From positions 86,282 to 136,511 of the forward strand of contig VAWK01000018.1 of the NCBI GenBank assembly GCA_005885515.1: a stretch of 50,230 nucleotides of DNA, written 5' to 3'. The notes below the pieces were generated by a model, which saw only the letters and a program-made list of their open reading frames with translations, was not told the DNA's origin and searched no databases. Positions 1 through 25,682 of the stretch are shown here, one piece after another; position 1 is the stretch's first letter, and each line of letters begins with the position of its first letter. Position numbers and translations under genes: made by a program. The DNA is from Actinomycetota bacterium. Its GTDB lineage: Bacteria > Actinomycetota > Thermoleophilia > Solirubrobacterales > Solirubrobacteraceae.

Positions 1-87
1 CCCGTAGATCTCGGCGCCGATCTCGATGTCCGCCAATGGCCGCGTGCGGCCGTCGGCCAACAGGACGCGCGTGTCGCCCGAAGCGCA
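1..87 (-). mobile_element. Intein N-terminal segment (5' edge; continues outside window)
   Basis: The intein begins at Cys77 of the host protein (codon 85-87). The following residues, C-A-S-G-D-T-R-V-L then ADGRTRPLADIEIGAEIYG, match block A of Hint-fold inteins: Cys1, then GDT, a strand, and the P-L-x-D-I-x-x-G pattern. Insertion is exactly at the third cysteine of the CxxxCxxC motif, so splicing would need a cysteine as the first C-extein residue to rebuild the cluster motif. Whether a homing endonuclease is present cannot be seen because the rest lies beyond position 1. Confidence 0.85.
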
Positions 88-315
88 GTAGGTGCACGCA
101 TGACTGCATCCCCGGTAGGGATTGATCGTCCAGCGGAACGGCATCCGCGACTGCTCGGGCACGCGGTTGAGGATCGAGCGGGCGCGCACCTCCCAGAACC
201 GCGTCTCGAGCGCCTCGGGCGCATCGAAGCGCCGCAGGGTCGCCTCGTCCCGGTATCCGGGCAGGCGCCGCTGCTGTCCGCCGTCGAGGGTGAGGTCATC
301 CCAGCGCACGAACAT
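1..315 (-). CDS. Rv2578c-family radical SAM protein, intein-interrupted, 5' part only
   Basis: The first 105 codons of a gene that runs off the left edge. Residues 66-77 contain NPYRGCSHACTYC-type sequence: the CxxxCxxC cysteines (70, 74, 77) that would ligate the radical SAM [4Fe-4S] cluster, preceded by the RWTINPYRGC segment typical of the Rv2578c/SPL-like radical SAM group. Directly after the third cysteine the sequence changes to ASGDTRVLLADGRTRPLAD, which is not radical SAM sequence but the N-terminal splicing block of an intein. The mature enzyme would therefore form only after protein splicing. The start chosen is ATG at 313-315, giving MFVRWDDL; it sits inside a palindrome described separately. 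Function in the family is poorly defined; a link to DNA damage is suggested by that palindrome. Family and intein are sure from sequence pattern; the biochemical role is unknown to me. Confidence 0.88.
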   Translation of the reverse strand, partial: MFVRWDDLTLDGGQQRRLPGYRDEATLRRFDAPEALETRFWEVRARSILNRVPEQSRMPFRWTINPYRGCSHACTYCASGDTRVLLADGRTRPLADIEIGAEIYG

Positions 316-322
316 ATGTTCG
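309..322. promoter_or_regulatory. LexA/SOS-box-like operator over the start codon
   Basis: CGAACATATGTTCG is a perfect 14-base inverted repeat. It agrees with the Gram-positive/actinobacterial LexA box (CGAAC-N4-GTTCG/C). The ATG of the radical SAM gene is in its centre. A LexA dimer bound here would block transcription of a short-leader or leaderless message. No second copy of GAAC-N4-GTTC was noticed elsewhere, including upstream of recA. Confidence 0.75.
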
Positions 323-743
323 CATAACCCTCGGCGCCACCGAGGTTCGGGGCGAGCGCGGCGCGGGCGGACCCCGCGGCATTGGCTCTGCGGTGCAATG
401 GCGCCGGGCTTCTTATGAAAACTTCGCAGGCGGACCGCGGCTTAGACTGGCTGGCTCGCTCAGGCCCAAGTGCAAGATGCTGTGCGGTTGCCGCCGGACA
501 CAGGTCTACGATTACCAGTGCCCCACGGATGCGGGGGAGCGTCCCCGGCCCGCACCCTCCTCCTTCACGGGTCGGGGACCCCAATCTGTTGGGCGGCCCT
601 CGGTCGGGCCTATCTCCGGCAACGTCGCCGAGTGGGTTTCCACCCCAAATTGCGGCGTCTCATTTCCCAAAATGCGAGATATCCCGCTCCAGGCATCTAC
701 GCTTTCTCGCGGGGGTAAGCATCAGACGGGACGCACGCGAGGC
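316..743. other. 428-base stretch without a convincing gene
   Basis: Short overlapping ORFs in all frames lack a family match, a ribosome binding site or consistent codon-position bias. The part from 316 leftward into the radical SAM gene would hold its promoter. The region 600-715 is less GC-rich than the surroundings (runs such as CCCCAAATTGC and TTTCCCAAAATGCGAG). I recognise no tRNA, tmRNA, RNase P or riboswitch signature. Confidence 0.5.
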
Positions 744-1105: not shown

Positions 1106-1370
1106 CGGGCGAAGGTAGCGCGCACCCTAGACGGAAGCTCTACGTAAGGTCGGAGTTTGCCGCTCGTCGGTTGTCAGAGCAGCAGCCAATTCGCGGAACG
1201 AGCGCAGAGGCGAGAACGGCGCGATCTGCTCGCGCCGAGGCGCTGGCAAGCCAGACCGACACGGACTCTTACGAATCCCCTACACACGTCTGCGCAGATG
1301 CTTAGGTGCGCCTTCGTGGCGCCTTAGCGGGGACGGCGAGGATAGCCGAGTCCACTCCGCCGATTTCTCC

Positions 1371-1376
1371 AGGAGG
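1371..1376 (+). promoter_or_regulatory. Strong Shine-Dalgarno of the secreted protein
   Basis: AGGAGG is a perfect anti-16S complement, ten bases ahead of the ATG at 1387. It fixes the start of the downstream gene and rules out the longer frame from 1306. Confidence 0.8.
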
Positions 1377-1386
1377 TTCCTTCCCA

Positions 1387-1752
1387 ATGAACATATCCAA
1401 GATGCTCGGGGCCACCATGGTCGCCGGCGCGCTGGCCGCCGGAGGCGCCGCTTCTGGCATAACCGGCGCCTCGGCCGCGTCCAGCTCGAGCGCCGGCAGC
1501 ACCGGATCGAGTAACGGCGCGTCGGGTTCGGGCGCTGGCAGTGCAGAAACGAGCAACGCCGCGTCCAGTGGCAGCTCCACGACGCCCAAACCCGGCACCC
1601 CCTCTCCCCCGTCCCGCAGACCGACCCCGCACCACAAAGGCCCCTGCCCCGGCATGGGCTCAAGCTCGGGCTCGGGCTCCGGCTCGGCATACGAACCGGG
1701 CTCCAGCTCGGGAGCGGGCCCGGCGGGCGGCCCGGACGTGACCTACCAGTAG
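1387..1752 (+). CDS. Small secreted Ser/Gly/Ala-rich protein
   Basis: A 121-residue product starting MNISKMLGATMVAGALAAGG, a typical Sec signal peptide: one basic residue, a hydrophobic Ala/Gly core, and a likely cleavage around the GASAAS segment near residue 30. The mature part is low-complexity Ser/Gly/Ala with Thr/Pro in the middle, one CPG cysteine, and Ser-Gly dipeptide runs towards the C-terminus that ends PDVTYQ. Nothing enzymatic is visible. The perfect Shine-Dalgarno suggests strong translation. It resembles the short exported low-complexity proteins common in actinobacteria; the role is unknown. It converges with miaB. Confidence 0.6.
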   Translation: MNISKMLGATMVAGALAAGGAASGITGASAASSSSAGSTGSSNGASGSGAGSAETSNAASSGSSTTPKPGTPSPPSRRPTPHHKGPCPGMGSSSGSGSGSAYEPGSSSGAGPAGGPDVTYQ

Positions 1753-4421: not shown

Positions 4422-4588
4422 GGTCTGGCTCCTCGCTCGAGATGGACCGAGCAAGCTACTCCTCGCCGCGGACGGAACAGCCGCCCGCAATGGGCCGCCG
4501 GGCCTGGCCGTAGCGGCCCGCTCGCGCCCTTTCCCGCCCGCTTGCGCCGTTCGGCCTCGCGCCACCTGCACGCCGAGCGGACGGTCGC

Positions 4589-23315: not shown

Positions 23316-25682
23316 TCAGGAGGTGAGCACACGCTCCTGCAGGCGCGTCTCGTACGTCTCGAGCACGTCGCCCTCGTGCAGGTCCTGGAAGTTCGCCAGC
23401 ACGATGCCGCACTCGAAGCCGCTCGCGACCTCGCGCGCGTCATCGGTGAAGCGGCGCAGGCTGGCGATCGTGGTGTCGTAGATCACGGTGCCGTCGCGCA
23501 CGACCCGCACGCGTGCGCCGCGCGTGACCTTGCCCTCGGCCACGAACGCTCCCGCGATCGTGCCTACGCGCGAGGCGCGGAACAGCTGGCGCACCTCCGC
23601 CTGCCCGAGGGTGGTTTCGACCTCGGCCGGCTCCAGCATCCCCTGCATCGCCGCGCGCAGCTCCTCGATCGCACGGTAGATGACCGCGTAGGAGCGGATC
23701 TCCACGCCCTCGCGCTCGGCGATCGCGCGCGCATCGCCGACCGGGCGCACGTTGAAGGCAAGGATCACGCCGTCGGATGCGGCCGCGAGCATCACGTCGG
23801 ACTCGTTGATGCCGCCAACGCCGCGGTGGATTATGTTGACCTTGACCTCCTGCTGGGGAAGCTTCGCGATCTCGTCCTCGATCGCCTCCAGCGACCCGGC
23901 CACGTCGGCCTTGATGACGAGCGCGAGCTCCTTGACGGCCCCCTCCTGCGCGAGCTTGAACACGTCCTCGAGCGAGACCTTGCGCCCCGAACGGCGCGCC
24001 AGCGCCTCCGTCTTCAGTCGGTTGGCACGCTCGCCGGCCAGCTGGCGGGCGCGCCGCTCGTGCTCGACCACGCGCACGATCTCGCCCGCCTCGGGCACGC
24101 CGTCGAAGCCCAACACCTCGACCGGCTGGCCAGGAGTCGCGCGCTTGACGCGCGCGCCGATGAAGTCGTGCATGGCACGCACGCGGCCGAAGTGCGCGCC
24201 CGCCACCAGCGCATCGCCGACGCGCAGGGTGCCGCGCTGGATCAGCACGCTCACGACCGGTCCCCGGCCGGGGTCGAGCTTGGACTCGATCACGGTGCCC
24301 GACGCGGGGGCGTCCCGATTTGCCTTCAGCTCCTCGAGGTCGGTGACCAGCTGAATCGTGTCCAGCAGCGCGTCCAGCCCCTGGCGGGTCTTCGCGCTCA
24401 CATCGACGAACTCGATATCGCCTCCCCACTCCGACGGCTGCAGCCCTCGCTGCGTCATCTCGGTGCGCACCCGCTCGGGCTGCGCGCCCTCCTTGTCGAC
24501 CTTGTTCACGGCCACCATCATCGGCACCTCGGCGGCGCGGGCATGGTCGATCGCCTCCTCGGTCTGCGGCTTGACCCCGTCGTCGGCCGCAACCACGATC
24601 ACGGCCAGGTCCGTAACGCGCGCGCCGCGCGCTCGCATCGCTGTAAACGCCTCGTGCCCGGGGGTGTCCAGGAAGGTGATCTCCTTATCGCCATGGTGGA
24701 CCTGGTAGGCGCCGATGTGCTGCGTGATGCCCCCAGCCTCGCCCGCGGCCACCTCGGTCTCGCGGATCGCGTCCAGCAGCGAGGTCTTGCCGTGGTCCAC
24801 GTGCCCCATGACCGTCACCACCGGCGGCCGGTCCTCCAGCTCGCCGTCGGCGTCCGCGAACTCCGGTTCGAGGTCGACGTCGTCGGCGGCGTGGGCGATC
24901 TCGATCTTCTTGTCGAACTCGTCCGCCAGCACCTGGATCGCGTCATCGGACAGCGTCTGCGTCAACGTGGCCATCTCGCCGAGCGTCATCAGCTTCTTGA
25001 TCACCTCTGGAACCGCCACGCCGAGGTACTCCGCGACCTCCTTGACCGTGGAGCCCGAGTTGACCCGGATCATGTCGGTCGCCTCCATCGCCGCAGTGTC
25101 GATCGGCGCGATCGTCTCCTCGTAGGTCCCGCGCCGGCGCCGGCCACGGCGCGGTCGGCGCTGCGGCAGGTTCGCCGGGCCTCCCTGCTGGCGCCGGGAG
25201 GCCTGGGAATCGATCACCACGCGCCGGCGCCCGCCAGGACCGATCTCACCCGGGGTGCGCTCACCGGTACGCGAGTCGCGCGTGGGCCGCACCCGTTCGA
25301 CGGCCGGGGCTGACGCGCGTGGCGGCGGCGCCTGTGGCGCGCCTGCCGCCACGGCGACGGGCGGCGCCGCGGTGCCCGCAGAAGCGTCCGCGCCAGCCGG
25401 GGTGGCCGCGCGCGCTGATGTCGAGGTCGGCGGCGAGGCGCCGGGTTGGGGCGCTGGCGAGCCGGCCGGGGCCGTTGCCGGGCTGGGGGCGCGCCCCGAC
25501 GCACCGTCGCCATCGCCGCGGTGAGCTGCGCCGTCAGGCGCGAGCGCCTTCAGCGCCATCGCCTCGTCCACGGTGGAGGCGGCCGCCTTGACGTCGAGTC
25601 CGGCGGCGGTCAGCCGGTCGAGCAGCTCCTTGCTCGAGAGCCCCTGCTCCTTCGCTATCTCATACACGCGCTTCTTGCTCAT
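23316..25682 (-). CDS. infB: Translation initiation factor IF-2
   Basis: GTPase that brings fMet-tRNA to the 30S subunit. The 788 aa comprise an IF2N domain (residues 1-50), a long Ala/Pro/Gly-rich linker (about 50-130), an Arg-rich basic patch (150-186), a second IF2N domain (200-260), the G domain with G1 GHVDHGKT at 293-300 and NKVDKEGAQ, and the C-terminal tRNA-binding domains. The ATG at 25680-25682 overlaps the ylxR stop by one base and gives [20 protein letters not shown]. Upstream open frame is chance. Confidence 0.97.

Follow-up and report, generated by a model that had tools for sequence, protein, structure and literature searches.

A conserved SOS box and predicted LexA operator at the start of a probable Rv2578c-family radical SAM gene in Solirubrobacterales

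The radical SAM gene and the dyad at its start

The window, i.e., the whole stretch of 50,230 nt that was analysed (positions 86282-136511 of its contig), opens just past an assembly gap, within the intein of a radical SAM gene that lies on the minus strand and runs leftward from position 315. The N-extein of this probable Rv2578c-family protein (88-315, minus strand, counted from an ATG) ends in HACTY and is followed by the start of the intein (CASGDTRVL..., 1-87, minus strand), which is inserted before the third cysteine of the CxxxCxxC motif and continues past the window across the assembly gap. Beyond the gap the C-extein (CFARPTHTYLG...) was found. As this begins with CFARP, the intein splits GCSHACTY from CFARP directly before the third radical SAM cysteine. 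The 4Fe-4S motif is thus present as GCSHACTY-intein-CFARP, and the protein has a Pfam Radical_SAM match. The nearest NCBIfam models are NF038135 (Rv2578c family) and NF038136, its intein-containing exception, in which this form is already catalogued. When joined by hand, the exteins score 406.8 against NF038135 (cut-off 430; E = 5e-122), the intein form being broken by the assembly gap. A comparison by sequence gave no relative in the PDB. The protein probably belongs to COG1533; to our knowledge, no reaction has been assigned to the Rv2578c family.

At the 5′ end of the gene, CGAACATATGTTCG occupies positions 309-322. It is the sole match in the window at up to two mismatches, where about 0.04 are expected, and forms a perfect 14-bp inverted repeat with all 10 bases of the CGAAC-N4-GTTCG core of actinobacterial LexA operators; its extended form in the clade is tgCGAACATnTGTTCG. 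The initial annotation of an SOS box of the Gram-positive/actinobacterial type is thereby borne out. In total, the window contains 20 perfect 14-bp inverted repeats, of which only those at 309-322 and 24857-24870 have the CGAAC-N4-GTTCG form. The latter, CGAACTCCGGTTCG, lies within a long reading frame and is probably a chance occurrence. Another dyad, CCTCGG-N5-CCGAGG (328-344), is located directly 5′ of the SOS box and is possibly due to chance as well.

The box was originally described as centred on the start codon. An ATG is indeed present inside it (315-313, minus strand), but this is probably not the true start. In most orthologues of the order, the codon at this position is GTG, ACG, CTG, GCG or out of frame, while two codons further GTG or ATG is found in 58 of 59 orthologues, the exception being a frame-shifted alignment. 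Moreover, position 2 of the NF038135 model aligns to residue 4 as counted from the ATG. Codon conservation and the start of the family model therefore both indicate GTG 309-307 (minus strand), which shares a single base with the box, as the common start. The ATG is best seen as a variant of the operator spacer; it may serve as an alternative start but is rejected as the conserved one.

SOS boxes in the genome and among orthologues

A pattern search of the genome (2.69 Mb, 79 contigs) yielded 15 CGAACN4GTTCG dyads. The reversed pattern, used as a control, occurs 6 times, and base composition predicts about 2.4 dyads. Several of the 15 lie within coding regions and are probably chance occurrences. 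Elsewhere, the dyad is located 38 nt upstream of lexA, 1 nt 5′ of an imuB ATG in an imuB-like gene that is followed by dnaE2, 21 nt upstream of uvrA and 70 nt upstream of dnaB. The scan ahead of lexA, dnaE2 and imuB that had been proposed initially was therefore positive at lexA and imuB-dnaE2, and additionally revealed uvrA and dnaB. The LexA protein encoded by this genome is canonical (TIGR00498), and the dyad recurs in the promoter of lexA itself, in agreement with the motif assumed for this organism. A box with all 10 bases, at most 111 nt from the mapped start, is present in 30 of 30 lexA loci, including that of this genome. For imuB, the relatives were scanned with a narrow protein motif that missed many of them; a perfect box was found in 10 of the 12 readable promoters (12 of 30 relatives).

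Three HTH proteins likewise have the dyad in front of their genes. At these loci (L002, L009 and L012, around 1501-1514), the boxes overlap or abut candidate starts of HTH-domain proteins of unknown role. The L009 protein (494 aa) has a GTG start on the final box base, as in the radical SAM gene, with CGTCC at -15 to -11; most of its relatives match its C-terminal half only. In locus L014, a perfect dyad (1501-1514) separates dnaB from the gene 5′ of it. Locus L003 contains a 114-aa open reading frame (1176-1517, minus strand) with an SOS box at its start and no Pfam match. The recA promoter (window 4453-4487, minus strand) reads CCGTCCG-N10-TAGCTT. An SOS box beside recA is kept in many relatives and is degraded here to CGGGCGGCTGTTCC (7 of 10 bases).

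Conservation of the dyad in orthologous promoters, on which the initial interpretation depended, was found at three levels. Within the same order, at least 9 of the 10 dyad bases are present at the start of 59 of 61 orthologues, with an offset to the coding start of -7 in most and of -8, -9, -10 or -11 in others. Since the gene does not include the left half-site and the offsets vary, conservation acts at the level of the DNA and not of the protein sequence. In 80 named Actinomycetia loci (Mycobacterium, Rhodococcus, Gordonia, Nocardia, Kribbella, Arthrobacter, Microbacteriaceae and others), a box with at least 9 of 10 bases was present in 69, versus 5 of 714 control windows, and ends 8-10 nt 5′ of the start. 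Nearly all promoters inspected from Mycobacterium other than M. tuberculosis contain the box; an Rv2578c query matched no identical genome within the genus, the best reaching 88-89%. Finally, the box occurs in 39 of 40 further divergent genomes of the phylum versus 2 of 40 control stretches. There a TTGACA-like -35 usually lies on one side of it and a -10-like hexamer on the other, with the box filling the spacer, and the start codon often lies just a few bases past this hexamer. A large-genome family (f27), which appears to be Streptomyces-like, mostly has GGAACN4GTTCT about 40 nt ahead of the gene and thus a leader, whereas in the window the box reaches the start codon.

The initial annotation had also presented the gene as an intein-controlled enzyme under SOS control. 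The SOS part of this description is supported, while the intein is incidental: the box is kept in 23 of 24 orthologues with an intein and in 36 of 37 without, and a link between both elements is rejected.

The SOS reading of the dyad is well supported by this pattern. A chance match might be considered, given the 2.4 dyads expected genome-wide from composition and the presence of some of the observed ones in coding regions, but it is refuted by the conservation across the order and most of the phylum sample, which leaves it a negligible probability. Alternatively, another regulator could bind the dyad, or the palindrome could have been preserved because translation initiation requires it; it does overlap the region of the start, and the window has further short palindromes. 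This is very improbable, since the sequence conforms to the SOS box of Gram-positive bacteria, is found again at the genome's own lexA and translesion polymerase genes, and is retained although the distance of the box from the start codon differs from lineage to lineage. Very probably, the dyad functions as a LexA operator, overlaps a predicted leaderless core promoter and keeps the radical SAM gene repressed as long as the DNA is undamaged.

Promoter architecture and proposed control

Within the operator, the hexamer GAACAT (316-321, minus strand), preceded by TG at 324-323, is the candidate -10 element. GAACAT is a poor match to a -10 and its assignment rests on spacing: in imuB of close relatives, TTGACC lies at 17-bp spacing from the same hexamer, and in relatives of the radical SAM gene a CGTCC element is found at PafBC spacing from it. 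As these two independent upstream elements both fit, the -10 was placed at GAACAT. In the radical SAM promoter of the window itself, no recognisable -35 was found and the position of the CGTCC element (333-337, minus strand) is degenerate (GCGCC), so this promoter may be weak. Across most of the phylum, a TTGACA-like -35 precedes the box, a -10-like hexamer follows it directly and the start codon comes a few bases later. This arrangement points to a leaderless or near-leaderless transcript, and in the window a transcription start is predicted on or adjoining the GTG at 307-309. The operator is nearer to the gene in this order than in most of the phylum, and here operator and core promoter would fall together, on a gene whose mRNA has no leader. 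As the operator would contain the -10 hexamer with its extended TG and end at the start codon, bound LexA would directly block RNA polymerase. Self-cleavage of LexA, stimulated by RecA, would then give access to the promoter, with the mRNA starting at or beside the GTG. What the sequence shows directly is the box, its conservation and the set of SOS genes in this genome; binding of LexA and repression of the gene are predicted.

LexA may not act alone in this group of bacteria. A dual control can be envisaged in which LexA repression is combined with activation by a PafBC-type WYL protein through the -26 CGTCC element, which lies ahead of the -10 named above; one promoter would then respond to two sensors of damage. 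At -15 to -11 relative to the box, 47 of 59 orthologues match CGTCC in 4 or 5 of its 5 bases, the background being 2.8% per position. The published RecA-independent damage motif is tTGTCRgtg-N8-TAnnnT (PMC5656591), and its distance of 15 nt from GTC to the hexamer is the same in the order; the majority of the relatives' recA and lexA promoters share it. Moreover, two WYL domains are encoded by a single 855-codon open frame of the genome (loci L116 and L117), whose product resembles a naturally fused PafBC. However, this WYL protein is named by no NCBIfam model, and the bases flanking GTC are not those of the mycobacterial motif. In addition, the window copy reads GCGCC where PafBC-dependent promoters have the -26 GTC at 15 nt from the -10. 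Having lost most of CGTCC, the promoter of the window falls outside such a dual control, which would apply to the relatives. Overall, we regard dual control as a serious but not the favoured possibility. Somewhat more tentative is the evolutionary scenario that an ancestral, phylum-wide SOS gene underwent a change in this order, in which the LexA operator moved onto the -10 and start of a leaderless radical SAM repair gene and a PafBC-type site was added.

Relation to known SOS genes

SOS control of SplB-type genes has been reported before. The splB gene (COG1533) is described as an SOS gene in alpha- and beta-Proteobacteria and in Bacteroidetes (PMC3323433, PMC8565304), where the type of enzyme and its regulator are alike but the LexA motifs and the phyla differ. 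Closer by, the LexA regulon of Streptomyces venezuelae, determined by ChIP, includes the radical SAM gene vnz_31145, which was likened to enzymes repairing UV-induced thymine lesions (PMC9380542). It offers an actinobacterial precedent, backed by ChIP, for a LexA target of the radical SAM type, which is the level of the comparison made here. Given these reports, the finding in the window extends a known theme. Rv2578c of M. tuberculosis may itself be among the LexA-box genes, as the initial annotation proposed; a literature search, with the primary papers on M. tuberculosis LexA beyond its scope, retrieved no paper joining Rv2578c and LexA. New are the conservation of the box throughout the phylum, the shift of the operator in this order and the PafBC-like upstream element that is present in most relatives and degenerate here.

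The conserved box points to a role of the radical SAM enzyme in DNA repair, although such a role is deduced from regulation. Because the LexA box is kept across the phylum, DNA damage would be the first place to seek the substrate of the Rv2578c family.
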